In this document: positions 13,724-27,668 of the stretch, in pieces | How the letters are laid out: each line of letters begins with the position of its first letter | How positions within the stretch are numbered: position 1 is the stretch's first letter | DNA from: Pseudomonas putida | GTDB taxonomy: Bacteria > Pseudomonadota > Gammaproteobacteria > Pseudomonadales > Pseudomonadaceae | NCBI RefSeq assembly: GCF_009883635.2 | Contig: NZ_CP026115.2 | Span: 2,232,001 to 2,296,000 of the forward strand | DNA: 64,000 bases | Direction: 5' to 3' | Notes under the pieces: generated by a model | Database searches by the model: none | Told to the model about the DNA's origin: nothing | What the model saw: the letters and a program-made list of their open reading frames with translations, nothing else | Made by a program: the position numbers and the translations under genes

Positions 13724-13830
13724 GATCGGCTCCAATCAGGTCGCTAAACGTCTTAAATAGGTCGAACAATATATTGGATCTAATCATTAGCCAGCTATAT
13801 GCTTTTTTCATTGCGCGAGAGGTACCGCCC
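13724..13830. promoter_or_regulatory. Divergent lysR/MFS promoter region
   Basis: This 107-bp AT-rich gap contains ACAATATATTGGATCTAATC followed by ATTAGCCAGCTATAT, with several overlapping partial dyads compatible with the T-N11-A boxes of LysR proteins. Which one is the operator cannot be told by eye. Confidence 0.5.
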
Positions 13831-15075
13831 GTGAAAACTGCTGTAGCCCCCCTTCCTGCCGGCCCAGAACCTGCCCCCCTGAACGACATGTGGATCGAAA
13901 AAGGCACCCCCGCCTTCATGAAAACCGTGCTGGCCCTGTTCAGCGGCGGCTTCGCCACGTTCGCCCTGCTGTACTGCGTGCAGCCGATGATGCCGCTGCT
14001 GTCGAAGGAGTTTTCCATCAACGCGGCGCAGAGCAGCCTGGTGCTGTCGGTGTCCACTGCGATGCTGGCGTTCGGCCTGCTGATCACCGGCCCGATCTCC
14101 GACCGCATCGGCCGCAAGCCGGTGATGGTGTTTGCCTTGGTCTGTGCCGCCCTGTCGACCCTGGCCAGCGCGGTGATGCCGAGCTGGGAGCTGGTGCTGG
14201 CCACCCGCGCCCTGGTGGGCCTGTCGCTGAGTGGCCTGGCGGCGGTGGCGATGACCTACCTCAGCGAAGAAATCCACCCGCAGCACATCGGCCTGGCCAT
14301 GGGCCTGTACATCGGCGGCAATGCCATCGGCGGCATGAGCGGGCGGTTGATTACCGGGGTACTGATCGATTTCGTCAGTTGGCATGCGGCGATGCTGACC
14401 ATCGGTGGCCTGGCCCTGGTGGCGGCGCTGGTGTTCTGGAAAGTGCTGCCTGAATCGCGCAATTTCCGCCCGCAGTCGATGAACCCGCGCAGCCTGCTGG
14501 ACGGCTTTGTCATGCACTTCAAGGATGCCGGGCTGCCGTGGTTGTTCCTCGAAGCCTTCCTGCTGATGGGCGCCTTCGTCACCCTGTTCAACTACATCGG
14601 CTATCGCCTGCTGGCCGAGCCTTACCACATGAACCAGGCGCTGGTCGGCTTGCTGTCGGTGGTGTACCTGTCGGGTATCTACAGCTCGGCGCAGGTCGGT
14701 GCCCTGGCCGACAAGCTGGGCCGGCGCAAGGTGTTCTGGGCCAGTATCGTGGTAATGGCCGGCGGTTTGCTGATGACGTTGGCCAACCCGCTGGCGCTGG
14801 TGATCGTCGGCATGCTGGTGTTCACCTTCGGCTTCTTCGGTGCGCACTCGGTGGCCAGCAGTTGGATCGGCCGGCGGGCGCTGAAGGCCAAGGGGCAGGC
14901 TTCGTCGCTGTACCTGTTCAGCTATTACGCAGGGTCCAGCGTGGCCGGTACGGCCGGTGGAGTGTTCTGGCACCAGTGGGGGTGGAATGGGATCGGCTTG
15001 TTCATCGGCAGCCTGCTGGCAGTAGCGTTGCTGGTGGCCCTGCACTTGAGCAGGTTGCAACCCAAGGCGGCCTGA
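13831..15075 (+). CDS. MFS transporter, probable drug/metabolite efflux (YnfM-like)
   Basis: The 414-residue protein has twelve predicted membrane helices and the MFS signature between helices 2 and 3, GPISDRIGRKPVMVFALV. A second copy of the motif is GALADKLGRRKVFWASIV. The GTG at 13831 follows GAGAGGTACCGCCC; ATG at 13889 is the alternative and would remove a polar N-terminus. It resembles the arabinose-efflux-like YnfM group, drug:proton antiporters, often next to a LysR regulator as here. Substrate is unknown. The stop is only 12 bp from the convergent gspM stop, within a shared hairpin. Confidence 0.87.
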   Translation: MKTAVAPLPAGPEPAPLNDMWIEKGTPAFMKTVLALFSGGFATFALLYCVQPMMPLLSKEFSINAAQSSLVLSVSTAMLAFGLLITGPISDRIGRKPVMVFALVCAALSTLASAVMPSWELVLATRALVGLSLSGLAAVAMTYLSEEIHPQHIGLAMGLYIGGNAIGGMSGRLITGVLIDFVSWHAAMLTIGGLALVAALVFWKVLPESRNFRPQSMNPRSLLDGFVMHFKDAGLPWLFLEAFLLMGAFVTLFNYIGYRLLAEPYHMNQALVGLLSVVYLSGIYSSAQVGALADKLGRRKVFWASIVVMAGGLLMTLANPLALVIVGMLVFTFGFFGAHSVASSWIGRRALKAKGQASSLYLFSYYAGSSVAGTAGGVFWHQWGWNGIGLFIGSLLAVALLVALHLSRLQPKAA

Positions 15076-15078
15076 AAG

Positions 15079-15099
15079 GCCGAGGCATCATGCCTCGGC
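15079..15099. terminator. Shared hairpin between MFS gene and gspM
   Basis: GCCGAGGCA-TCA-TGCCTCGGC is a perfect 9-bp stem with a 3-nt loop, and the loop is the reverse complement of the gspM stop codon. There is only a short T run on either side (CCTTTC on the minus strand), so it may be a weak bidirectional terminator or an mRNA 3'-end stabiliser. Confidence 0.6.
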
Positions 15100-15558
15100 G
15101 AGTATCATCACGAAACGCGCCTGTATCAGCTCTCCTTCGGCTTGCAGCTGGAGAGTGAGCGGTTTGCCACCGTCCTGCTCCAGTACGTGCAACCAGGCCA
15201 GCACGGCGGCCGCAGCCCCTTCCAGGCTGACATCCACTTGCCCGGACCTGGCCTCCAGGCTGGTGATACGCAGGCCCGCAGCCTTGGCGCGCTCGTTCAA
15301 TCCCGCAGGTGTCAGCACCTCGACGGGGATTGACGACCAAGGTGGCCCCTGCACGATTCGCTGCAACTGGACACGCACTTCATGTTCGCGTGCCAGGTCT
15401 CGCTCAGCCTGTTGCAGGCGGGCCTGCCCCGGCAGCCAGAGTAACTGGCCGATCACGATCAAGGTCAGCCCCCATGATGCTGCCTTCAACTGCGTGCGTC
15501 GGCTGGGCGGTAGCTGTTGCCACTGTCGTACCCACCCAGATCCTCTCCAATAACTCAT
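15088..15558 (-). CDS. gspM: Type II secretion inner-membrane protein GspM
   Basis: The 156-residue protein has a short cytoplasmic N-terminus, one transmembrane helix (about residues 24-44, AASWGLTLIVIGQLLWLPG), a coiled segment (ARLQQAERDLAREHEVRVQL) and a ferredoxin-like periplasmic domain. GspM binds GspL and anchors the assembly platform of the secretion pseudopilus. It is last in the operon and overlaps gspL by 4 nt. Sequence conservation in GspM is low, so the call rests on length, topology and position. Confidence 0.87.
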   Translation of the reverse strand: MSYWRGSGWVRQWQQLPPSRRTQLKAASWGLTLIVIGQLLWLPGQARLQQAERDLAREHEVRVQLQRIVQGPPWSSIPVEVLTPAGLNERAKAAGLRITSLEARSGQVDVSLEGAAAAVLAWLHVLEQDGGKPLTLQLQAEGELIQARFVMILAEA

Positions 15559-16667
15559 TCAGCCTCCCGCCAGGACAGGGTCGCGCGCACACCTTGGTCG
15601 GCCTGTCGGCCCTGTTCCATTCGCATACCGGGCACACGTGCGCCAAGCCGTTCGAGATCGTCAAAGCCTTGGGCGACAACGTCGACTCGCCAGCCTTGTT
15701 CAGGCGTCGATTCAGCCCGCTCGATCACTACATTGCCAACGCCGACCAGTTGCTCCGAGAGCAGTGCCAGCTGCTCCAACGTAGTCGCCTGCCTAGGGCG
15801 GTGTTCGAGCAACCTGATTCGCGTAGCCAGGTCGCCATCCGGAGACTGCTCAGGTGCCCAGCGCTGCAAAACTCGAAGGTTCTCGGCATGCAACCGTGAA
15901 GCTTGCTGCATGAGCCACTGCGTGCGCACGTGATCGACCAGGCAAACCATCAGCAAAGCCAGCACCACGCCACTTGCCAGACCACGCCATGCTGGCCCAA
16001 TGCGCCGCCGACGCAGGGCGCCTTGGCGCAGGTCCACGGCGCCAGCATTGCCTTGCATCAGGATATCCACAGCACTGGTAATCGGCTGACTAGAGTCGCC
16101 TGCGCCTGTTGAGCCAGCCTCGGCCATCCAGGGCATCGAAGCATATTTCTGCTTCAGTGCCTGTGCCGCCTGGGCACTGAGCGCCAGGCAAGCACCCTCG
16201 CTGCCCCCCAGCAGCCATCGCCCCTCGAACCACAGGGCGCAGGCCCGCTCGGCATTCAGCAGGTCGGCATCGACGTAGACAGCGATGGGGTCGATGCCCT
16301 GCTGCAACAGCTTCGACATCAGCAAGCGCAAGCATTCCAGCGCTATCGCCATTACCTTGCGCCGGCCTTCTTCATCCGCTGGCCCGAACGCCAGGTGCAC
16401 AGCCTCCAAGGGTGCTGCCAATTGATCTTCCGTCGCATAGCCCAAAGTCTCCCGGCTGGGGCGCCTGCCCGGTATCGGCCCGATCACACAGTACCCCGCC
16501 AGCTCCATCGGCAGGACGAGCACCACCGCAGCGCCGGCCAACTCCGACGGCAAGCTGCCTAACTGTGACCGATATAGATGGCCCTGCGCTGTGCGCACTA
16601 GCACTGGCCATGTCCCACTGTCTTCGGCCACGCCCCCCATCAGCAGAAACAGGTAAACATTACTCAT
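15555..16667 (-). CDS. gspL: Type II secretion protein GspL
   Basis: The 370-residue bitopic protein begins MSNVYLFLLMGG. It has a cytoplasmic actin-like domain (about 1-220), one transmembrane helix (GLASGVVLALLMVCLVDHV, about 236-255) and a periplasmic ferredoxin-like domain with RVDVVAQGFDDLERLGARV. GspL recruits the GspE ATPase to the inner-membrane platform. The ATG at 16667 is chosen because it overlaps the gspK stop by 8 nt, as in translationally coupled operons; the frame extends upstream inside gspK. Family length is usually 380-400, so it is close to normal. Confidence 0.9.
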   Translation of the reverse strand: MSNVYLFLLMGGVAEDSGTWPVLVRTAQGHLYRSQLGSLPSELAGAAVVLVLPMELAGYCVIGPIPGRRPSRETLGYATEDQLAAPLEAVHLAFGPADEEGRRKVMAIALECLRLLMSKLLQQGIDPIAVYVDADLLNAERACALWFEGRWLLGGSEGACLALSAQAAQALKQKYASMPWMAEAGSTGAGDSSQPITSAVDILMQGNAGAVDLRQGALRRRRIGPAWRGLASGVVLALLMVCLVDHVRTQWLMQQASRLHAENLRVLQRWAPEQSPDGDLATRIRLLEHRPRQATTLEQLALLSEQLVGVGNVVIERAESTPEQGWRVDVVAQGFDDLERLGARVPGMRMEQGRQADQGVRATLSWREAE

Positions 16668-17517
16668 CGTGCATGTGCTCCGGTTGTGCAGAAAAAAACC
16701 GACGCAGCACGCGCACCTGATGTGTGTTCGGGTCGATTTCAAGGTCGCTGTACAGATAGCCAAGGTTGCCTTCCACCTCTGCACGCACCTCCAGGCGGTA
16801 CCAGCGGCTCGTCACCGACAACCCATGGCTGTCGATGCCAAGGCCCACCAACTGCGGTTGCGCCAGAAATTGCTGAACGCTCGCGTAGCCCTGTTCGGGC
16901 TGCTTGCCCGTCACGCTCCGTGCAATGGTGGCATCCACGCCTTCCAGGCCTTCAAGTACCTGCGCCAGGGCGGTATTGACGTTGAGCCCCGCATGGGTAG
17001 GCAAGGCCACGACCCATGGCTGCAAACGTGCCATCACCTGCGCATCGACGCCCGGCAAGGCGCGCAGTTGACTGGGGTCGAGCAGGCGTTGCCCGGCCAG
17101 AGGTTCCAACATTGGTGCCTCGATCTGCAGGGCATGGCACAACCGCTGCCAACGTTCGAGCAGTACCGGGTCGAGGGTTTTTCGTGCGGTCAACGCAGCG
17201 ATATTGAAGCGCCCGGAAAGGTCCTCCAGGCGCAGCCGAACTTGCCCCTGCTCAAGGTCCAGCAATCGGGTTTGCGCCCAAGGCTGACCGCGATGGGTCA
17301 CCTGCAGCAAGGTCGCAGCCTGCTGTTTCAGCTGCTTCAAGGCATGGTGCTCGCCGGCATGGGCGAGCTGCAGCAAGCGCGAGGCATCGATCTGCTGCCG
17401 CATGCTGCCCAGCATCCCCTGGTGGCTACGCAACATGCCGGCAATCAGCAGGGTCGACAGTGCCATTACTAACAGCACCGTAATGAGCGCCACGCCCTGT
17501 TGCCTCGGGGTTTTCAC
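16660..17517 (-). CDS. gspK: Type II secretion minor pseudopilin GspK
   Basis: The 285-residue protein starts MKTPRQQGVALITVLLVMAL. The prepilin peptidase site is after Gly8, and residue +5 of the mature protein is Thr rather than Glu, as is usual for GspK, which caps the pseudopilus tip. The large C-terminal domain (about 50-285) contains the LSGRFNIAAL motif of GspK and the ASVQQFLAQPQL region. It overlaps gspJ by 4 nt and gspL by 8 nt. Confidence 0.93.
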   Translation of the reverse strand: MKTPRQQGVALITVLLVMALSTLLIAGMLRSHQGMLGSMRQQIDASRLLQLAHAGEHHALKQLKQQAATLLQVTHRGQPWAQTRLLDLEQGQVRLRLEDLSGRFNIAALTARKTLDPVLLERWQRLCHALQIEAPMLEPLAGQRLLDPSQLRALPGVDAQVMARLQPWVVALPTHAGLNVNTALAQVLEGLEGVDATIARSVTGKQPEQGYASVQQFLAQPQLVGLGIDSHGLSVTSRWYRLEVRAEVEGNLGYLYSDLEIDPNTHQVRVLRRFFSAQPEHMHDE

Positions 17518-18092
17518 AGGCTTACCCCCGCCAGGGGCAGTACTCGGCGAATCCGCTGAAAGCGCTGGGTCGACAAGGTGACTTCAAGTGCCTGGGGCGG
17601 TTGCGCAGCCGCCCAGCTGGATACCCATCCGCTTTCTGCACCGTACATCCTCCAGTGCAGCTCCTCGATACCTTCGAGCAGCCGTTGCGGGCGTACCTGC
17701 CCGTGCTCCAGCGTGCGCCGCTGACGCCACAACACACCGTCCGCCAGCCAGTACTCGACTACTCGCAGATCGCTGCGTGGCAGCGATTGCCGATCACGCT
17801 CTGCGCCAAGCAACCAGCCCACCCGCTGCGGCGTCAGCAATACACCGTGACTCCCGCCCTTTTTGCTGCCTGCGGTCCAGTACCCTTGCAGTGCATCCCG
17901 CTGCATCACACTCATTGCTCGCCCAAGCGCACGCAATTCTTCGGCCTGGGCCTGACGCGCGGCATCTACCCGTACCAATGCAGCCAACAATTGGCTGGTA
18001 GCCGTCGCCAGCAAGGCAAAGATGGCGATGGCCAGTAATAGCTCGAGCAGGGTAAAGCCGCGCTGGATTCGGACTGACTTATTGCGTTGCAT
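17514..18092 (-). CDS. gspJ: Type II secretion minor pseudopilin GspJ
   Basis: The 192-residue prepilin has the cleavage site RIQRG|FTLLELLLAIAIFAL with Glu at +5, followed by the hydrophobic assembly helix and a beta-rich globular domain. GspJ joins GspI and GspK at the pseudopilus tip. ATG at 18092 is preferred over TTG at 18098 because GGAGG lies 6 nt upstream. It overlaps gspI by 14 nt and gspK by 4 nt. Confidence 0.92.
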   Translation of the reverse strand: MQRNKSVRIQRGFTLLELLLAIAIFALLATATSQLLAALVRVDAARQAQAEELRALGRAMSVMQRDALQGYWTAGSKKGGSHGVLLTPQRVGWLLGAERDRQSLPRSDLRVVEYWLADGVLWRQRRTLEHGQVRPQRLLEGIEELHWRMYGAESGWVSSWAAAQPPQALEVTLSTQRFQRIRRVLPLAGVSL

Positions 18093-18471
18093 CGGCAACC
18101 TCCAGCCAGCCCACAGCGTGGTGAAGCGGCTGTCGGTCCGATGCCAGGCCGACGCTCACGCCAACTTCGACGAGTGCCAGCTCTGGCTGATGACGCCTCG
18201 ATTCGACGATGAACCAGCTGCGCTGATCGAACTGGACCTCTTGCATGCGACGCTGTGCAGTCGCTGTCGCGTGCAAGCGAAGCTCGTTGAGGTGGTTATC
18301 AGCGATCCAGCTTGCGAACAGTCGATCGCGCATACCCTGCGACTGTGCCAGCACCTGCTGGCTGGCGGTGGTCACTGCTGCGGCCAGCACGGCAAATACA
18401 GACAGCGCCACCAGCACTTCCAGCAAGGTGAACCCACGTTCAGCGTTCGAGCCAGGGGTCATTGAGGCCAT
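18079..18471 (-). CDS. gspI: Type II secretion minor pseudopilin GspI
   Basis: The roughly 130-residue prepilin carries NAERG|FTLLEVLVALSVFAV, a canonical class III signal with Glu at +5. The globular part is short, as expected for GspI, which nucleates the tip complex. The start is uncertain: ATG at 18471 (MASMTPG) and ATG at 18462 (MTPG) both lie inside gspH and neither has a clear ribosome binding site, so translation is probably coupled to gspH. A longer frame upstream is not plausible as a prepilin leader. Confidence 0.88.
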   Translation of the reverse strand: MASMTPGSNAERGFTLLEVLVALSVFAVLAAAVTTASQQVLAQSQGMRDRLFASWIADNHLNELRLHATATAQRRMQEVQFDQRSWFIVESRRHQPELALVEVGVSVGLASDRQPLHHAVGWLEVADATQ

Positions 18472-18904
18472 CGCTTGATAGTTGGGCAAGGCTGACCCCC
18501 GCCTCGTGGAATGACAACGAGAACGGGGTGTACTCGTCGTTACGGTCAAACACCAATTGCGTAGCATTTCCTGGGCCAGCGAGCATCACCGGGAACCCGT
18601 CGATACTCAGGCGCAGGTCCAGGCCAGTGTCCCGGCGCGGCCCTGCAGACACCCAGCTTCTCCCGGACGCCTTCATCAGCTGATAGCCGCGGTCATCGAT
18701 GTGCACTCCCATCTCCTGCCCCTCCAGCACCGCCTGCTGCCGGGCATGCTCGACCAGTTGCAGGAACAAGCCGGCCTCCTGGCTGGCCAGGCGTTGCGGG
18801 TCGCGCCCCAACTGCACCCCGGCCATGCCCATGACAACGCCCGCCAGTACCAGCACCAGCATCATTTCAAGCAGGGTGAAGCCTCGCGAGCGACGCAGAC
18901 TCAT
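18440..18904 (-). CDS. gspH: Type II secretion minor pseudopilin GspH
   Basis: The 154-residue prepilin begins MSLRRSRG|FTLLEMMLVLVLAG with the usual Glu at +5. The rest is a beta-sheet domain with the segment EQ-free VEHARQQAVLEGQEMGVHI typical of GspH/FimT. GspH sits between the tip complex and the GspG shaft. It overlaps gspG by 4 nt (ATGA) and gspI by about 30 nt. Confidence 0.92.
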   Translation of the reverse strand: MSLRRSRGFTLLEMMLVLVLAGVVMGMAGVQLGRDPQRLASQEAGLFLQLVEHARQQAVLEGQEMGVHIDDRGYQLMKASGRSWVSAGPRRDTGLDLRLSIDGFPVMLAGPGNATQLVFDRNDEYTPFSLSFHEAGVSLAQLSSDGLNDPWLER

Positions 18905-19347
18905 TCGGCCCAGTTACCGATATCGGCATCCGCATCTTCACCACCAGGTTGGCCATCGGCGCCGAAAGAGAACAGGTCATACCCCTGCCCTGATCGCGTA
19001 CCGGGGTTACTGTATTGATAGGGTGTGCCCCAGGGGTCGAGCGCCTGGCTCTTGAGGTAGCCTTGGGCGTTCCACTGACGTGGCAAGGGGGCAACGGTCG
19101 GGCGCCGGATGAGCGCCTCCAGGCCTTGGGCGGTGGTCGGATAACGGCCATTGTCCAGGCGGTAAATTTCCAGTGCTGTGGAGATTGACTGGATATCGGT
19201 ATGCGCCGCCGTGAACTTGGCATGGTCCGGGCGGCTCATCACGTTGGGCAGCACCAACGCGCCGAGCACCCCCAGAATAACCACAACCACCATGATTTCG
19301 ATGAGCGTGAAACCACGCTGCGCACGACGTGCAAAGCCAGAAGACAT
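18901..19347 (-). CDS. gspG: Type II secretion major pseudopilin GspG
   Basis: The 148-residue protein has RRAQRG|FTLIEIMVVVVILG, the GspG leader and helix with Glu at +5. The conserved GspG motifs are present: LDNGRYPTTAQGLEAL, the WGTPYQYSNPG region, and a C-terminal calcium-loop-like segment rich in Asp (GGEDADADIGNW). GspG polymerises into the periplasmic piston that pushes substrates through the secretin. It lies 1 nt after gspF and overlaps gspH. Confidence 0.96.
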   Translation of the reverse strand: MSSGFARRAQRGFTLIEIMVVVVILGVLGALVLPNVMSRPDHAKFTAAHTDIQSISTALEIYRLDNGRYPTTAQGLEALIRRPTVAPLPRQWNAQGYLKSQALDPWGTPYQYSNPGTRSGQGYDLFSFGADGQPGGEDADADIGNWAE

Positions 19348-19348
19348 A

Positions 19349-20554
19349 TCAGTTGACCAGTTGGTTGAGATTGAGAATGGGCAGCAGGATGGCCAGCACG
19401 ATGAACAGCACGATGCCCCCCATCACCAACAGCATCAGGGGTTCGCACAGGCTAACCAGGAGGGTTATCCGACCCGCCAGTTGCCTGGCCTGAAGATCGG
19501 CGGCACGTTCGAGCATGCTGTCCAGTTCACCGGCACGCTCGCCACTGGCAATCATGTGCAGCATCAGTGCAGGCATGCTCTGGCTGCGTTCCAGGCTTTG
19601 GGCCAGCGTTGCGCCCTCGCCCACCTCACGCACAGCGGTATGCAAGCGTTCGCGCAAGACCAGGTTGCCCACCACACCGGCAGCGATGTTCATGGCATCG
19701 ACCAACACAACACCGCTGCGGCCGAGAATCGCCAGGGTACTGATGAAACGCGCAGCCTCACTGGCACGAACGAAGCCTGCGTAACCTGGCAGGCGCAGGG
19801 CCATGGCATGCCATTGCCTTCGCCTCGCCGGCTGGCGCAACAGCGAGGCAGCGCCAGCAACACCTGCCAGCAGCACCAGCAGGGCCGGCAACCCGAAGCG
19901 GCCAAAAGCATTGCTCAATGCAATCAGCAGCTGTGTCGCCAGCGGCAACTGTGCCTGGTCGCGGGTAAATGCCTGTACCACGTCCGGCACTACATAGCCG
20001 AGCAGAAACGCCACCACCATCAGCGCGACGATGGTCAGTATCAGTGGGTAGACCATCGCCAGTTGCACTTTCTGGCGCAGGGCCTGCTGATCTTCACCAT
20101 GGGCTGCCAGCCGCTCCAGTACTCCTGCCAGGTGCCCGGAGCGCTCCGCCGCCTCGACCGTGGCGCGGTAAACCAGTGGGAAAGCCAAGGGGTAATGGGC
20201 CAGCGCATCGGCAAAGGTATTACCTTCGGCGACTCGCTCAGCCACGCCAAGCAATATCTGCCTGGCCTGTCGCTGGCCACTTTGGGTCGCCACCGCCTGT
20301 AACGCCTCGGTCAACGGCATGCTCGCCTGCAACAGCGTCGCCAGCTGCCGGGTAAGCAAACAGCGGCGTGCCAGGGAAAGACGATTGCCTGCAACCAGGG
20401 CAGCAAAAGGCGAAGGCTGTACCCGCTCGATCGTGATGACCAACCAGCCTTGCTCGCGCAACTGCTGCCGGGCCTGACGCGCATTGGCCGCCTCAAGCGT
20501 TCCGCGCTGGCGAGCGCCACCCAGGCGTTGGGCCTGATACCGGAAAACCGCCAT
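19349..20554 (-). CDS. gspF: Type II secretion platform protein GspF
   Basis: The 401-residue inner-membrane protein has two repeated GspF domains (about 65-190 and 270-390), each ending in a membrane helix, with a third helix between them (VYPLILTIVALMVVAFLLGY and a C-terminal LLVMGGIVLFIVLAILLPIL). It begins MAVFRYQAQRLGGARQRG, typical of GspF. It forms the centre of the assembly platform above GspE. It lies 2 nt after gspE. Confidence 0.95.
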   Translation of the reverse strand: MAVFRYQAQRLGGARQRGTLEAANARQARQQLREQGWLVITIERVQPSPFAALVAGNRLSLARRCLLTRQLATLLQASMPLTEALQAVATQSGQRQARQILLGVAERVAEGNTFADALAHYPLAFPLVYRATVEAAERSGHLAGVLERLAAHGEDQQALRQKVQLAMVYPLILTIVALMVVAFLLGYVVPDVVQAFTRDQAQLPLATQLLIALSNAFGRFGLPALLVLLAGVAGAASLLRQPARRRQWHAMALRLPGYAGFVRASEAARFISTLAILGRSGVVLVDAMNIAAGVVGNLVLRERLHTAVREVGEGATLAQSLERSQSMPALMLHMIASGERAGELDSMLERAADLQARQLAGRITLLVSLCEPLMLLVMGGIVLFIVLAILLPILNLNQLVN

Positions 20555-20556
20555 TC

Positions 20557-22020
20557 TCAGCCCTCGCCCGTCACGCGCAGCAGTTCCTCAAGACTGGTCT
20601 GCCCTTGGCAGACACGCTGAACGCCATGCTGAAACAGGCTGGTCGTGCCCGGTCGCAGTAAATCTTGCATCTGTGCCAACGACGCGCGGCCATGGATGGC
20701 CTGCGCCAGCTGCGGGGTAATGACGACCATCTCATGCAACGCCATGCGCCCGCTGTAACCCATCTGGCACAGCTCACAGCCTACGGCCTTGTACAGCTGC
20801 CTCGGCAGGCTGTCAGGGTTGCCCAGGGCGTCGGCAATGGCGCCCTCCACCTCGTACGCGGCTTTGCAGTGGGGGCATAACACACGCACCAGGCGCTGTG
20901 CCATGACACCGGCAAGGGAGGAGGCCAGCAGGCAGGGATCCACCCCCATGTCCGCCAGCCGCGTGATGGCGCCCAGAGCGCTGTTGGTATGCAGGGTCGA
21001 CAGCACCAGATGACCTGTCAGCGATGCCTGCACGGCGATTTCCGCCGTTTCCCGGTCACGGATCTCCCCTACCATCACGACGTCTGGGTCCTGCCGCAGG
21101 ATCGCCCGAAGCCCACGGGCGAAGGTCATGTCGACCTTGGTGTTGACCTGGGTCTGGCCGATGCCTGGCAAGTGGTATTCGACCGGGTCTTCAACGGTGA
21201 GGATGTTGCGCGACTCACGGTTCAGTACCGAGAGCGCGGTATACAGCGTGGTGGTCTTGCCCGAGCCGGTCGGGCCTGTCACCAGGAAAATACCATGGGG
21301 TTTTTCCAGCAATGCCAGAAACGCTTGCTGCACCGAGGGTCGCATCTGCATGTGCTGCACATCCAGACGCACAGCCTGCTTGTCCAGCAGACGTAGCACT
21401 ACCCTTTCGCCATGGGCCGCAGGCAAGGTAGACACACGCACATCCACCTCATGGCCGGCCAGCCGCAGGCTGATGCGGCCATCCTGTGGCACGCGCTTTT
21501 CGGCAATGTCCAGACGCGCCATGACCTTGATCCGCGACACCAGCAAGGCCGCGAGCGCCCTGGGCGGCGACAGCACTTCACGCATAACCCCGTCGACGCG
21601 CATGCGAACGCGCAACTGCTGTTCGAACGTTTCCAGGTGGATATCGGAAGCGCGCGACCTGACCGCTTCGCTGAGCAAGGCATTGAGCAAACGGATGATG
21701 GGCGCATCATCCTGTTGATCGAGCAGGTCGCTTGCCTGCGGCAAGGCCTCAGCCAGGCGTGACAGGTCTATGTGCTCATCCAGCCCCTGAATGACCGACT
21801 CCGCAGCATCCTGGGCGCCGCCGTAGCAAGCGGCAAGGTGCTCTGCAAACTGGTCGCCATCCACCAGGCGCAGTGGCCAGTGATGCCCAACGATACGCAG
21901 CGCCTCGGAAAGCGATTCCAGCGTGGCATCGTCACGCATCAACAGTGTGGGCTCGGCTGCCTGCCGATCTAGCAGAATGCCATGACGCCGGGCGAAGCCG
22001 AATGGAAGCAAAGGGTTCAA
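20557..22020 (-). CDS. gspE: Type II secretion ATPase GspE
   Basis: The 487-residue cytoplasmic ATPase drives pseudopilus assembly. It shows Walker [16 protein letters not shown] near residue 250, the Asp box [13 protein letters not shown], Walker [16 protein letters not shown], the His box [13 protein letters not shown], and a tetracysteine zinc motif, CPHC and CELC, near residues 375-410. The zinc motif and the gene order separate it from PilB. The start is a TTG at 22020 that overlaps the gspD stop (TTGA), which suggests weak, coupled translation. The N-terminal GspL-binding part is present but short. Confidence 0.95.
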
Positions 22021-23858
22021 GGCGATGGCTCCCCGCCTTCCGGCATTGGCCGCGCTTCGAACAACCTGTGGGGATCCTGGGGCACGCGCGTCGGGTCGGA
22101 GGCGCGAACATCATCGTAGGCACGCTGCCCGGACTCGACCAATTCCGCCTGGGTACGCAAAATGGTGGGGCGCAGGAACACCATCAGATTGGTCTTTTCC
22201 TGGGTATCCCTGGTCCAGCGGAACAAGCCACCGATCAAAGGAATACGACTGAGTAACGGCACGCCACGCTGCTCTGTGCGCACACTGTCCTTGATCAGTC
22301 CACCGATAACGATGATCTCGCCGTCCGCCGCGAGGATGGTGCTCTTGAGCGTTCGCTTGCTGGTAATCAGGTCACCTTCGAGCGTGCTGGGTGCCAGTTC
22401 CGAGCTTTCCTGCTCGACCTCGAGACGCAAGCTTCGGCCTTCGTTGATATGCGGGCGAACCTTGAGGCTGATGCCAATATCTTTGCGTTCCACGGTGGTG
22501 AACGGGTTATCCGCGCCATTGCCCGCCGTGGTGTACGAACCCGTCTTGAATGGCACGTTCTGCCCCACCAGGATTTGCGCTTCCTGGTTGTCGAGCGTAA
22601 GCAGGCTGGGAGTGGACAGCAGGTTGCTACGGCTGTTGCTGGCTAATGCAGAAACCAGCAGACCGAAGCGGTCAGAGCCCAGAACCAGGGCCGCGCCACT
22701 GGGCAACGCCTTGTCCGCCCCCAGCACATCGGACAACAGCGCACCGCTGTCCGGGAATGTCACTCCGCCCTTGAGGCTGCCGGTATCTATACCCCACTGC
22801 AATCCCAACGCCTCATTGATATCACCACTGACTTCGACAATGGCCGCGTGTATCAACACCTGCGCGCGAGGCTGGTCCAATTGCTCGATGATCTGCACCA
22901 CACTCCCCAGCGCCTTGGGTTCCCCCAGCAGCACCAAGGCGTTCTGGCTGCTGTCTGCCTTGACCATCGCCCCGGCCGCAAGCGCCTGGCCCAAGGCTTC
23001 TGTGCCCGGTTTGCCATCCAGCCGCTTGCCCACTTCATTGAGCACCTCGGCCAGCTGTTCGGCATTTCCATGCTGAAGGCGCACCACACGCCAGTTATGC
23101 GAATTTTCAGGTGCCGGCACATCCAGTTCGCGGGCCAGTCTTGCCAATCGTTGACGGGACTTTTCCGGGCCAAGCACGAGCAGGCGATTGCTGCGCGTGT
23201 CGGCCAATACCCGCACACCGCTGTCCGGGCTTCCTGCCGAGGCCTCGACGACCGGCAATACATCGGCGGCTTGCGCTGTACGCAGCGTGACCAGTTCGTA
23301 GTCATGCCGCTGACCGCCGTCCAGTTGCCCCACCAGGGCCTGCAACCGCTCGAGGTTGGCAGCCGAGTCAGTGACAACCAGGGCATTGGCGGAGCTGGAC
23401 GGGCCGATATACCCATTGCTCGACACCAGCGGTCTCAGCAGGCCGGCCAGGTCGGCGGCAGTGCTGCCAGACAGGCTGAACACACGTGTGGTAAATGCGG
23501 ACGGAATCGCATCGACCTGCTGGTTGGCCCAAGCCTTGGCTTCACTTGCCGGCAAGACCAGCAAGCGGTCGCCGTCGTTGACCGCGGCAAAGCCCTGGGC
23601 ATTCAAGACCGAGTAGAACAGCCGACGCACACCCTCGCGGTCGTGCGCCTCATTGGACAACACCGTGATACGTCCTTGCACGCGTGGATCGAGCACAATC
23701 GTCTGGTCAAGGATGGCGCCGACTTCGCGCACCACATCACGCACATCCGCATCGCTCATCGCCAATTGCCAGGTAGGTACATCAGCCATGGCCAGTGGGC
23801 CGGTCAAGGTGAGGCAAGCGCCGAGTGAGGCTGCCCGCAGGTAACGTTGATATCTCAT
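22017..23858 (-). CDS. gspD: Type II secretion secretin GspD
   Basis: The 613-residue outer-membrane secretin has a signal peptide ending in [11 protein letters not shown] near residue 25, an N0 domain (about 30-100), N1-N3 repeats (about 105-330), and the C-terminal secretin barrel with [10 protein letters not shown] and the signature [20 protein letters not shown]. It is shorter than 650-residue family members, and the S domain at the C-terminus is brief. No gspS pilotin gene is nearby. It overlaps gspC and gspE by 4 nt each. Confidence 0.95.
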
Positions 23859-24349
23859 TGCACCTCCCGCAAAAGGCGGGGCGAGTCGGAAGGGGCAGAC
23901 GCGCGTACGGTGCCGCTGCCAGATTGAACGAACACGTTGCCGCGGGAGCCGGACAAGGTCAGGGTTTTTTCACGCCCGTCGACCCAAAGGGTGATCGCTC
24001 CCACGTCGATGCGGCGCAATACGCTGCCACCCGGCAAGCGGTCGCCCACACTGTAGAAGCGGTCACCCTCGCGGCTTCCCACCAACGCACGGGTTTGGCC
24101 GCGACTGGGGATGAAGCATGCCTTGAGCACCAATCCGGCCTGGCTTGCAACCCGCTCCCCTGGCTCGCTGTAGCCAAAGGCCAATGCCAGGGTTGCCACA
24201 GGTAATGGCTGCTGCGCAGGTAGTGCACCAGCAACACTGCCCGGCCCGGCAGGTTCAACCAGAGCAGGACGCATGACTTCGCGCCAGACCAGAAAGACCA
24301 GCGCCAGCAGAGGGATTGCCATCCAGGACAAGGCAGTAGCGTGTTTCAT
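23855..24349 (-). CDS. gspC: Short GspC-type type II secretion protein (no PDZ)
   Basis: The 164-residue bitopic protein begins MKHATALSWMAIPLLALVFL. It has one membrane helix (about 9-24), a Pro-rich linker, then an HR-type domain (about 75-150) with ALVGSREGDRFYSVGDRLPG and VLRRIDVGAITLWVDGREKT, characteristic of GspC/PilP. Most GspC proteins continue with a PDZ or coiled-coil domain, absent here. GspC links the inner-membrane platform to the secretin and helps select substrates. ATG at 24349 follows the upstream stop by 4 nt. Confidence 0.83.
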   Translation of the reverse strand: MKHATALSWMAIPLLALVFLVWREVMRPALVEPAGPGSVAGALPAQQPLPVATLALAFGYSEPGERVASQAGLVLKACFIPSRGQTRALVGSREGDRFYSVGDRLPGGSVLRRIDVGAITLWVDGREKTLTLSGSRGNVFVQSGSGTVRASAPSDSPRLLREVQ

Positions 24350-24353
24350 TGGC

Positions 24354-24866
24354 TCAGGGCAGCATTCGACGTAATACACTCCGCCCGGCAAACTCATGCA
24401 TGGCGACTGCACCTACGTGCAACGCCACAGCCAAAGCCAGGGCGACGTTTGCTGCTATATGCACCTTGAGCCATGTGCTTAGCCAAAATGGATCAGTCAG
24501 CAAGGGCGCGAATGCAAACCAGCCAAACACGTCAATTGCACGATCCATCATCAGCACGCCTGAAGTCAGCACCAATGCGATGAGCCAATAGATGCCTTCG
24601 TGGACAACATGCGCCATACGCCGCGCCAGGGCGTTTTCGTTCAGTGCACTCGGCCTTGCCTTCAGGTAGCGCGTCAACCAGCGCAACAGAAAGACCGGAA
24701 TAAACAGCGTGGTCAGGCCGACATTCACGAAACCGACCCATTGTGCGGTGGCTGGTTCGACAACAAAGCCAGTCACGTAAAAACCACTCACCAAGGCCCA
24801 GACGATGACCAAGGCAGAGACCCAGTGCAACAGGACCTGCTGCCAGCAATAAGTATGTTGTTGCAT
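24354..24866 (-). CDS. Cytochrome b561-family membrane protein
   Basis: The 170-residue protein has four hydrophobic helices (about 11-30, 45-64, 92-107, 134-155). His14 in VLLHW, His86 and His89 in RMAHVVHE, His136 in LKVHIA and His150 in ALHVG sit where bacterial cytochrome b561 proteins bind two b haems. Such proteins pass electrons between quinol and periplasmic acceptors. It lies between an LPMO gene (56 nt upstream) and gspC (4 nt downstream), so it is cotranscribed with them. The start is unsure: ATG at 24866 gives a compact protein, and ATG at 24893 is possible; neither has a strong binding site. Confidence 0.85.
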   Translation of the reverse strand: MQQHTYCWQQVLLHWVSALVIVWALVSGFYVTGFVVEPATAQWVGFVNVGLTTLFIPVFLLRWLTRYLKARPSALNENALARRMAHVVHEGIYWLIALVLTSGVLMMDRAIDVFGWFAFAPLLTDPFWLSTWLKVHIAANVALALAVALHVGAVAMHEFAGRSVLRRMLP

Positions 24867-24922
24867 GAGAAATACCGTGGCACGGCCCGGCATGCCTATT
24901 GGGCTGCCAGGCCGCACTCCTT

Positions 24923-26392
24923 TTAGCGCTTGATCCAGGCGTCTTGCCAGTTGCTGCCTACGCCAGGCTCATAGTGATTGGCACTGGCGGAATAGCTCTT
25001 GCACCAGCCCTCGAACGGGAATGGTTTGCACTCGAATACCTCGCCGGTCTTGGGCTGCAGGACACGAGTGCCTTCTTTGTAGCTTGCGATCGACTGAGGG
25101 AATTCAAAGTCGTAGTCTTCGCCACCTGCGGCTTTGAGCTGAACCACACGTTCTTCCTGCAGCAAAATTCTCCCCGTCTTGTTCACACCAACCACCTTGA
25201 GCAGGTGTTCGCCCTCGACGCTAGTCACTGGTAGCGCAACGGGGCTGGTGGTGGCATCCACGTCCAGGCGAGCGAAGCCGACCTGCTGGTTAGCGCTGTC
25301 GAACAGCCGTGCGCTGACCTGCAGCTTGCGGTTGGTCATGACGGTGAAGTCAATGTTCGCCTTGCCGTCAGTCAAGCTGTAATCAGGCTTGAGGTCATGC
25401 AGATGCATATAGCTGTCGTCGACCGGCACGCCTTCGAAATCCAGCTGATAACTGCTGATGCCCGTCTCTGGCTTGGCGAAGATGTTGTTGGCGCCCTGCT
25501 CGGGCTTTATGTTGCCGTCGTTATCGAGCTGACCGGCCTGCACCAGCGACTGGGTTTCATTGATGCGCTTGGCCAGCTTGTAAGACCAATTGGGCGCGAG
25601 GCCTTCCTCGGCGTTCTCGATAGCAACCGTGACGCTGTATGGAGCGCTTTCCGAACCGGCCACGAACGCGCGGGCCTTGACCTTGTCGCCAACCTGCAGG
25701 TCACGGTGGGGGTTGATGCTACCCACCTGCGGCCACTCCGGAACCGGGCCGCCATCTACCTGGATATCCACATCCATGACGTTGTAGAACGCAAAGGCGG
25801 TATCGCCGATTGTCCAGGCTCCCAGAATAATGTGCTGCCCGGACTTGCCGGCAGGCAGCGTGCACTGGTGTTTTACCAGGGCCGGCCCACTCGTGGGTTG
25901 CCCCTCGCCACGGGCGGGCTTGCCTTGCCCGTCGACTGTGCAGAAAGGCGTTGGCTCGAACGCATCACGGCCCAACGGGGCATTCGGGTTCCAACCCGTT
26001 TTGGTGATGAAATACTCCCAGCCCGTTGTCTTGTGCCCTTCCGTGTAGTGCCAGTTGAAGGCGATTTCACGTTGTTTGATAGGGGTCAGGGTCCAGCGGT
26101 TGGCCGATTGTTCATCAAGCAACGAGAAATCAGACCGCACACCACCACTGGCGAGCTTCCCATCGACTGGACCGCGGGCCGGAAACCCTTTTGGTGCCTC
26201 TCCGACAGCTTGCGGCTCGTACATGGGCTGGCCGCATCCAGTGTTCGTACCTAACTTGCAGGCATACGCACGAGATGGTGGCTCACTGGTATAACCATGC
26301 GCATTGGCCAGCTGGGCATGCATGCCCGCACCGGCAACTGCCAGCCATAAACCGCTGGCAGCAAACCTTCGCAGATTCTTTGTTGTACTCAT
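24923..26392 (-). CDS. gbpA: GbpA-like lytic polysaccharide monooxygenase (AA10) with chitin-binding C-terminus
   Basis: The 489-residue protein has a signal peptide ending ANA|HGYTSEPPSRAYAC, so mature residue 1 is His32, the first ligand of the copper histidine brace. The second brace His is His120 in TEGHKTTGWEYFITK, and the axial Phe lies in GDTAFAFYNVMDV. After the AA10 domain (32 to about 210) come two GbpA-like middle domains (about 215-420) and a C-terminal CBM73-like module (EVFECKPFPFEGWC, EPGVGSNWQDAW). Length and order match Vibrio GbpA (about 485). Such enzymes cleave chitin oxidatively and leave by type II secretion. It is first in the operon; CCGGAGTGCGTC precedes its ATG. Confidence 0.93.
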   Translation of the reverse strand: MSTTKNLRRFAASGLWLAVAGAGMHAQLANAHGYTSEPPSRAYACKLGTNTGCGQPMYEPQAVGEAPKGFPARGPVDGKLASGGVRSDFSLLDEQSANRWTLTPIKQREIAFNWHYTEGHKTTGWEYFITKTGWNPNAPLGRDAFEPTPFCTVDGQGKPARGEGQPTSGPALVKHQCTLPAGKSGQHIILGAWTIGDTAFAFYNVMDVDIQVDGGPVPEWPQVGSINPHRDLQVGDKVKARAFVAGSESAPYSVTVAIENAEEGLAPNWSYKLAKRINETQSLVQAGQLDNDGNIKPEQGANNIFAKPETGISSYQLDFEGVPVDDSYMHLHDLKPDYSLTDGKANIDFTVMTNRKLQVSARLFDSANQQVGFARLDVDATTSPVALPVTSVEGEHLLKVVGVNKTGRILLQEERVVQLKAAGGEDYDFEFPQSIASYKEGTRVLQPKTGEVFECKPFPFEGWCKSYSASANHYEPGVGSNWQDAWIKR

Positions 26393-26603: not shown

Positions 26604-27668
26604 TTACTGGTGGTACTGCGCCGACAGCTCATGCACGGCGTTGATGAACACGCCGGCATGCTCCGGGTCGACTTCCGGGGTGATCCCGTGACCAAGATTG
26701 AATACGTGGCCAGTGCCCTTGCCATAACTGGCCAGGATACGCGCCACTTCCTGGCGGATAGCCTCGGGCTTGGCGTACAGCACCGTTGGGTCCATGTTGC
26801 CCTGCAGTGCAACCTTGTCACCAACACGGCGGCGGGCGTCGCCGATTTCGCAGGTCCAGTCCAGTCCCAGTGCGTCGGCGCCTGCTTCGGCGATGCTTTC
26901 CAGCCACAGGCCGCCATTCTTGGTGAACAGGATCACCGGCACCTTGCGCCCTTCGTGCTCACGGATCAGGCCGCTGACGATCTTGCGCATGTATGCCAGG
27001 GAGAACTCCTGGTAGGCCGCCGCCGACAGGTTACCGCCCCAGGTATCGAAGATCTGTACCGCTTGGGCGCCAGCAAGGATCTGGCCGTTGAGGTAGCTGG
27101 TGACCGACTGGGCCAGCTTGTCCAGCAACAGGTGCAGGGCCTGCGGGTTGTCGTAGGCCATGGCCTTGGTCTTGCGGAAGTCCTTGGACGAGCCGCCTTC
27201 TACCATGTAGGTGGCCAGGGTCCACGGGCTGCCGGAGAAACCGATCAGTGGCACACGACCATTGAGCTCGCGGCGGATGGTGCTGACCGCATCCATCACA
27301 TAGCCGAGATCTTTCTGCGGGTCAGGGATCGGCAGCGCTTCGATATCGGCCGGCGTGCTGATGACCTTCTTGAAACGCGGGCCTTCGCCGGTTTCGAAGT
27401 ACAGGCCCAGGCCCATGGCGTCGGGAATGGTGAGGATGTCCGAGAACAGGATCGCCGCGTCCAGCGGGTAGCGGTCCAGCGGCTGCAGGGTAACCTCGCA
27501 GGCGAACTGCGGATTCATGCAAAGGCTCATGAAATCACCGGCCTTGGCGCGGCTGGCGCGGTACTCCGGCAAGTAGCGGCCGGCCTGGCGCATCATCCAG
27601 ACAGGGGTGACGTCTACGGGTTGCTTGAGCAGTGCACGCAGGAAACGATCGTTCTTCAGGGCAGTCAT
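26604..27668 (-). CDS. hemE: Uroporphyrinogen decarboxylase HemE
   Basis: The 354-residue cytoplasmic enzyme decarboxylates uroporphyrinogen III to coproporphyrinogen III in haem synthesis. The family signatures are complete: [17 protein letters not shown] near residues 21-37 (with the substrate-binding Arg residues), [12 protein letters not shown] with the catalytic Asp, and [17 protein letters not shown]. Length is standard. It follows gltD on the same strand after 150 bp containing a hairpin and a palindrome, so it probably has its own promoter. Confidence 0.97.

Follow-up and report, generated by a model that had tools for sequence, protein, structure and literature searches.

A gene block pairing a GbpA-type LPMO with a type II secretion system in Pseudomonas putida, and its separable cytochrome b561 gene

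We analysed a 64,000-nucleotide stretch of Pseudomonas putida DNA (contig NZ_CP026115.2, positions 2,232,001 to 2,296,000; hereafter the window, in whose own numbering positions are given) and identified on its minus strand (15088-26392) thirteen tightly packed genes, which encode in order a GbpA/ChiY/CbpE-type AA10 lytic polysaccharide monooxygenase (LPMO), a cytochrome b561, and the type II secretion system (T2SS) proteins GspC to GspM. This block is very probably a T2SS of the Txc/Yts1 kind dedicated to the LPMO, passed on mostly by vertical descent at a site between hemE and a gene for a major facilitator superfamily (MFS) transporter, and repeatedly lost. The arrangement itself was known; what is added here is the quantified linkage of LPMO and T2SS, their mostly vertical history, and a b561 gene that is separable from them in both directions. 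Genes were called by Pfam and NCBIfam profile searches with the NCBIfam equivalog cut-offs, and the matches bear out the gene content and strand proposed in a preliminary description made from the sequence alone. Genomes and loci are cited by our G and L labels.

Linkage, chromosomal site and decay of the block

With b561, LPMO and GspD as queries, we searched 249 genomes of the genus, an even sample of a larger group. The linkage comparison took in all 64 LPMO matches of at least 199 bits, all 59 GspD matches above 550 bits plus seven with lower scores, and the first 65 matches to b561; short AA10 and CbpD-like matches were excluded. A GbpA-type LPMO gene lay within 8 kb of every GspD match above 550 bits (59/59), and a same-strand GspD of block type stood beside 61 of the 64 LPMO matches. 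The grouping of LPMO and gspD is not due to chance, because it recurs in 59 of the 249 genomes. The block-type T2SS was not met without an LPMO in this sample, and the LPMO was met without a block-type T2SS.

We additionally searched wider samples. At the family level, 18 of 148 genomes contained an LPMO match, and gspC and gspD lay beside the LPMO gene in 9 of 14 new loci; loci L219-L222 gave no gsp match, and L230 shows a second LPMO. The LPMO genes of G569 and G585, which sit on short contig ends, are only candidates for loci without the T2SS. A class-wide LPMO search matched 8 of 321 genomes, the window's own included; none of the others matched in one full-length stretch, G522 and G289 matching at both ends of the LPMO in separate pieces, and no gsp matches were found in the 3.5-3.9 kb loci of five of these seven genomes (L140-L144).

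The block occupies a conserved chromosomal site. We fetched 58 loci, added the window, and compared T2SS, LPMO and flank distances from FastTree trees by permutation tests (300 each). In 52 of the 59 loci the block adjoins hemE and/or the MFS gene, in the order hemE - block - MFS, and seven blocks lie elsewhere (G137, G092, G048, G221, G073, G061, G071). Within the window, hemE is directly upstream (26604..27668, minus strand, PF01208) and the MFS transporter gene downstream (13774..15075, plus strand, PF07690). Tree distances of the flanks correlated with those of the T2SS (rho 0.891, n=50) and of the LPMO (rho 0.894, n=50), as did those of the T2SS with the LPMO (rho 0.902, n=59), and in each comparison the observed rho was reached in 0 of 300 permutations.

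Loci with the block were also compared with the block-less hemE flanks of 58 genomes. A total of 60 hemE flanks was chosen from the listed hemE matches, the other two being G092 and G048, which carry the block elsewhere; the set is biased against genomes that have b561 alone, as these had been fetched earlier. The hemE-MFS interval measured 36 to 661 bp in 54 of the 60 flanks and 1.5 to 2.1 kb, without block scraps, in G009, G048, G059 and G017; in G174 the MFS gene was not seen in the flank stretch. In some species the site is occupied by other genes: at L131, L173, L200, L206 and L208 the intervals measure 1.5-2.6 kb and contain extra DNA without LPMO or gsp scraps.

Decayed blocks were identified at the same site. 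G045 (L122) retains both ends of the LPMO gene, a stop-bearing b561 that is 92% identical to that of the window, and scraps of gspC, gspD and gspM. G226 (L184) retains gspF scraps, and G235 (L133) a weak N-terminal LPMO scrap (34 aa, E=0.001) ahead of a lone b561; in G217, a match to gspG over 29 aa (E=0.005) could be due to chance. No block-protein match at E<=0.01 was found in 47 of 58 hemE-MFS intervals of 150-5000 bp. The simplest account is that LPMO and T2SS were lost together, with b561 sometimes spared. The flank tree (116 rows) requires no fewer than 17 changes of T2SS state and 23 of b561 state; since the trees are unrooted for gain and loss, it is from the relics that we infer loss, rather than gain, as the direction of change.

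Recent acquisition of the block by horizontal transfer in the window's lineage is very unlikely. Its patchy presence (59 of 249 genomes) and the seven loci away from the site would be expected from transfer, as would the lower GC content over 24-27 kb (0.586-0.599, compared with 0.606-0.658 for the remaining 1-kb segments between 10 and 32 kb). Against this stand the shared site in 52 of 59 loci, distances congruent with those of the flanks, and the decayed copies, although part of the site and congruence signal could also stem from recombination through the flanks. The comparisons are consistent with mostly vertical inheritance of the block at the hemE-MFS site and with repeated loss.

The LPMO, the secretion genes and the evidence on dedication

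The LPMO gene (24923..26392, minus strand, 489 aa) encodes the only PF03067 occurrence in the genome (140.8 bits), with GbpA_2 at 77.9 bits and the NCBIfam GbpA equivalog at 507.7 bits (cut-off 481). AA10 spans residues ~31-207 and GbpA_2 ~219-316, and the C-terminal part aligns with GbpA to residue 487; the closest solved relative is GbpA 8gul (322 bits over residues 48-487). The signal peptide probably extends to Ala31 (an Ala-Asn-Ala end), followed by His32, the cleavage site being judged by eye. All 62 LPMOs compared, from the 59 blocks and three loci without the T2SS, have His32, His120 and Phe202, and the two histidines are putative copper ligands. The protein therefore has the features of a GbpA-type AA10 LPMO: AA10 with a predicted N-terminal His and a second His, GbpA_2, and a C-terminal chitin-binding part. 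Two tandem LPMO genes head the off-site, Txc-clade blocks L118 and L119 (G061, G071).

The preliminary description had proposed a role in chitin attachment or degradation. Chitin breakdown by the usual enzyme pair is doubtful, because the genome gave no GH18 match (GH19 was not searched), and this tilts towards attachment or LPMO action alone.

The eleven gsp genes, all on the minus strand, begin with a short gspC (23855..24349, 164 aa), followed by gspD for the secretin (22017..23858, 613 aa, TIGR02517, 476.9 bits), gspE for the ATPase (20557..22020, 487 aa, TTG start, TIGR02533, 654.3 bits) and gspF for the inner-membrane protein (19349..20554, TIGR02120, 430.6 bits). The pseudopilin genes are gspG, encoding the major pseudopilin (18901..19347, TIGR01710, 184.1 bits), gspH (18440..18904, TIGR01708, 92.4 bits), gspI (18079..18471, start at 18471 or 18462, TIGR01707, 68.9 bits), gspJ (17514..18098, start at 18098 or 18092, TIGR01711, 76.0 bits) and gspK (16660..17517, PF21687 and PF03934); gspL (15555..16667, PF05134, 58.4 bits) and gspM (15088..15558) complete the block. 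GspD to GspJ exceed the NCBIfam equivalog cut-offs, and GspK and GspL those of Pfam. A secretin, a GspE ATPase, GspF, major and minor pseudopilins and GspC/L/M are thus all found, the identity of GspC and GspM resting on position in the block as well as on scores below the cut-off.

The close packing reported in the preliminary description, with overlaps of 4 to 32 nt and gaps of a few bases, agrees with the open reading frame coordinates, from which junctions were taken. Neighbouring genes overlap by 4 nt at C/D, D/E, G/H, J/K and L/M, by 8 nt at K/L, and, depending on the choice of start, by 23 or 32 nt at H/I and 14 or 20 nt at I/J; gaps are 4 nt at b561-gspC, 2 nt at E/F and 1 nt at F/G. 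The LPMO-b561 gap is 5, 29 or 56 nt, as set by the uncertain b561 start. No sigma-70-like promoter was found in the block scan (shuffles: mean 2.4), and its 11 terminator-like sites do not exceed chance (shuffles: mean 9.0, sd 3.2); the one with the most G-C pairs is an 8-pair hairpin between hemE and the LPMO gene (26587-26567, minus strand). LPMO to gspM may well be expressed as one operon.

No gspO, gspN, gspS, gspA or gspB was recognised among the open reading frames of the block. Elsewhere in the genome, at C1:1816523, lies its sole PF06750 prepilin peptidase match, so processing of the pseudopilins by a shared PilD is the natural reading, which fits the earlier suggestion that the system borrows this enzyme.

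Several points weigh against the favoured reading of enzyme and exporter or limit it. The 550-bit GspD cut was picked after a break between 553 and 529 bits had been seen. Every block-type T2SS among the 249 genomes comes with an LPMO gene, and the reverse does not hold: GbpA-type LPMOs lack an adjoining block-type T2SS in G109, G120 and G229 (L123, L124, L125), whose T2SSs fall in a different clade of the GspE+F+G tree (GspE 60-62% identical), and G668 and G706 (L243, L242) have an LPMO with no gsp match over 19.5 and 19.9 kb. GspC (23.4 bits for T2SSC, cut-off 27) and GspM (24.7 bits for PF04612, cut-off 27.8) score slightly below their Pfam cut-offs. The putative copper ligands are assigned from conservation and from what is established for AA10 enzymes, the printed GbpA alignment beginning at residue 48 and not covering His32. 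The window's genome holds another T2SS at 1.37 Mb (GspE 55% and GspD 35% identical to the block, best tblastn pieces), which could also carry the LPMO. For GspE alone, the match to the block of G685, a genome with a Txc-like locus described below, is 601 bits, compared with 585 for another T2SS there. Finally, the pairing of the T2SS with one LPMO allele appears loose, because the window and G077 share 95% identity in GspD and only 71% in the LPMO (dS 0.34 and 1.03).

The LPMO allele seems to have been exchanged, or to have diverged, independently of the machine. The only locus returned by an LPMO scan for named relatives, from Pseudomonas sp. NBRC 111124, has an LPMO 95% identical to that of the window, with b561 at 83% and gspC at 77%. 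Such divergence or exchange, seen between the window and G077, would be expected of a general-purpose second T2SS that exports the LPMO among other substrates, its linkage to the LPMO gene then being a product of co-regulation or history. Yts1 is likewise reported, in the available excerpts of PMC3521999, to secrete EngY and YE3650 besides ChiY, and the locus numbers suggest that their genes are encoded elsewhere. Set against this are the 59/59 linkage across species, the joint decay of LPMO and T2SS in G045, and the presence in the genome of another T2SS for general traffic. We regard a general-purpose system as rather unlikely. The proposed dedication of the T2SS to the LPMO has strong comparative support from the linkage and the decayed blocks.

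Besides the block, secretin and GspE-type loci were found at 1.37 and 5.28 Mb. The latter (C1:5284501-5289814, L121), which may represent a type IV filament or an Xcm-like system, encodes a secretin (in a 741-aa frame) together with a GspE-like ATPase and is remote from the block T2SS. The block was rejected as Xcp, the genome's own Xcp-like GspD being only 38% identical.

In a dedicated system, the LPMO pre-protein would cross the inner membrane via Sec, and cleavage after Ala31 would expose His32, which would form the copper site with His120. GspC/GspD would pick up the folded LPMO in the periplasm, and a GspG-K pseudopilus, its pseudopilins processed by the genome's shared prepilin peptidase, would drive it outwards, with power from GspE together with GspF/L/M. 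Outside the cell, it would bind and oxidise chitin-like surfaces via its AA10, GbpA_2 and C-terminal domains. The b561 would be a long-standing companion that the block can do without and that has its own redox function.

The cytochrome b561 gene

The b561 gene (24354..24917, minus strand) is listed with a GTG start, ATG at 24893 or 24866 being possible. Its product matches PF01292 (58.6 bits); as a single sequence it gave no match against the PDB, and a 48-row b561 profile matched structure 5oc0 (E=5.7e-10), which we take to be E. coli CybB. Five His are invariant in the 48 aligned rows, at positions that align with 5oc0, and the predicted structure is helical (mean pLDDT 83.8). Superoxide oxidase is a 4-helix di-heme b561, and its cationic antenna is described, in the excerpts available of PMC11869295, as five periplasmic residues (R30/R35/R38/R108/K134). 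Aligned to 5oc0, the window b561 has Lys or Arg at 0 of 5 antenna positions. Arg126 and Lys151 are each displaced by one residue, and 33 of the 48 relatives have Lys/Arg in one antenna column. Family and His positions would fit a superoxide oxidase (CybB), and the antenna, which is not conserved at the aligned positions, would not.

The b561 gene stands between LPMO and gspC in 37 of the 59 blocks. In G171 (L083, 15388-15888) it lies after gspM, at the 3' end of the block. An intact copy is lacking in 21 blocks: 19 gave no match to the 48 b561 queries, which detected 36 of 36 fetched b561-bearing blocks as a control, and two, G169 (L104, 13703-14008) and G208 (L110, 5884-5946), hold scraps directly behind the LPMO gene with the T2SS still present. 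It follows from these scraps that b561 has been lost from standing blocks.

The converse state was also identified. Of 28 b561 matches more than 8 kb from an LPMO, loci were fetched for 15, and in eight (G144, G040, G004, G086, G051, G235, G089, G023) b561 stands alone between hemE and the MFS gene; the 249-genome LPMO search found no match in these eight genomes. In G186, G022, G182 and G020 it lies elsewhere in the genome, and in G167 at the edge of another contig; the remaining two are the relic of G045 and the in-block copy of G171. The 60 hemE flanks contained no b561 match with one query or with 48. Lone b561 genes gave dN/dS values well below 1: 0.125 and 0.168 for two closely related pairs, and 0.31 for a third, distant pair whose dS of 1.4 is near saturation. 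For b561 of intact blocks, four pairs gave 0.168 to 0.299. Its tree distances follow those of the flanks (rho 0.653, n=41) less closely than do those of the T2SS and LPMO.

These states do not support b561 as an obligatory member of the line: 21 of 59 blocks lack an intact copy, and eight genomes keep b561 without LPMO and T2SS. That it is a working part of the LPMO line, as an electron donor or as a drain keeping copper oxidised in transit, is distinctly unlikely. The order LPMO-b561-gspC, found also off-site and in other genera, is what such a role would predict, and b561 weakly follows the T2SS on the flank tree (sign test, median p 0.039, range 0.002 to 0.29). Its absence from blocks, its displacement in G171, and the low dN/dS in pairs without LPMO and T2SS argue the other way.

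It is also unlikely that b561 is a preferred insertion site with an accidental T2SS neighbourhood. The eight genomes with b561 alone between hemE and MFS, and its place at the block's 3' end in G171, could be read in this manner. A simple insertion hot spot is nevertheless improbable because b561 also accompanies off-site blocks (G092, G048, G221, G073, G071) and blocks of other genera (L232, L233, L235, L236); it lies inside, not beside, the block, and loss can leave b561 as the sole remainder, as shown by the relic in G045 and, weakly, by that in G235. We consider very doubtful a further possibility, that b561 is a conditional redox partner where kept, which would drain electrons from periplasmic LPMO-copper or superoxide to the quinone pool, so that the LPMO leaves the cell silent and undamaged, and would serve more generally as an antioxidant once LPMO and T2SS are gone. 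To judge from these comparisons, b561 seems to be a long-standing block member that can be lost or kept alone.

Relation to known systems

In a GspE+F+G tree of 31 rows, which carried long-branch warnings, we identified two LPMO-linked clades, that of the window (92/99) and one containing G685 and other genera (100/100), their union being weakly supported (35/24). The G685 block, at 1.43 Mb, has the order response regulator - large protein of 1148 aa, probably a sensor - LPMO - b561 - gspC to gspM, and shares 35% (LPMO), 52% (GspD) and 62% (GspE) identity with the window. This order fits the published numbering of Txc (PSPA7_1407-1417), CbpE (1419) and two-component genes (1420-21), as given in the excerpts available of PMC12369383.

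As far as those excerpts go, Txc/CbpE (P. paraeruginosa PA7, RGP69) resembles the window in its 11 gsp genes and 5' GbpA-type LPMO with one gene number between them, and in the Txc-like locus of G685 the gene between LPMO and gspC is b561. The Txc group differs in its separate clade and its linked TtsS/TtsR two-component system, with matches in 9 of 11 Txc-group loci (one of the two proteins in L119) versus 1 of 57 window-group loci (weak, G048); L237 was placed in this group by similarity, outside the tree. The window has no linked TtsS/TtsR, hemE lying directly upstream of its block, and differs from Txc proper in this.

In the Yts1/ChiY system of Yersinia enterocolitica, too, the gene of a GbpA-like substrate is linked to the T2SS operon, and a cytochrome b gene often lies close by (PMC3521999, in the parts available). 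It is set apart by description, with ChiY 3' of the operon, the regulator PclR 5', and gspO and gspS present. GbpA of Vibrio cholerae (2xwx) and the solved homologue 8gul share the multidomain architecture of the window LPMO, by alignment and NCBIfam equivalog. V. cholerae GbpA reportedly uses the general Eps T2SS and is encoded outside that operon. CbpD has a different domain layout, and Xcp is general-purpose. CbpD of P. aeruginosa, described in the excerpts of PMC7902821 as an AA10 LPMO exported by a T2SS (Xcp), matches the window LPMO more weakly (130 bits). Xcm of P. putida GB-1/KT2440, likened by its description in the portions of the literature available, is a second, non-Xcp T2SS of the same species group, and differs in being linked there to manganese oxidation.

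The arrangement is not unusual; the Yts1/ChiY and Txc/CbpE literature describes the same kind. The study of Txc and CbpE is said, in papers that cite it, to be that of Cadoret (2014). In the portions of these sources available, ChiY is secreted by Yts1 and CbpE by Txc (PMC3521999, PMC8623646, PMC7902821, PMC12369383). A 2012 review, in its available excerpts, states for P. aeruginosa and P. putida that ChiY-like genes are located 5' of Yts1-like T2SSs and that a gene for cytochrome b561 goes with them, calls the meaning of the cytochrome link unknown, and leaves open whether it is functional or an insertion site (PMC3521999). We did not meet b561 separability in the literature searched, which is no proof that it is unpublished. 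Our comparisons turn the question of the 2012 review into numbers, and species that differ in exactly one block gene at one site are natural experiments on dedicated secretion.

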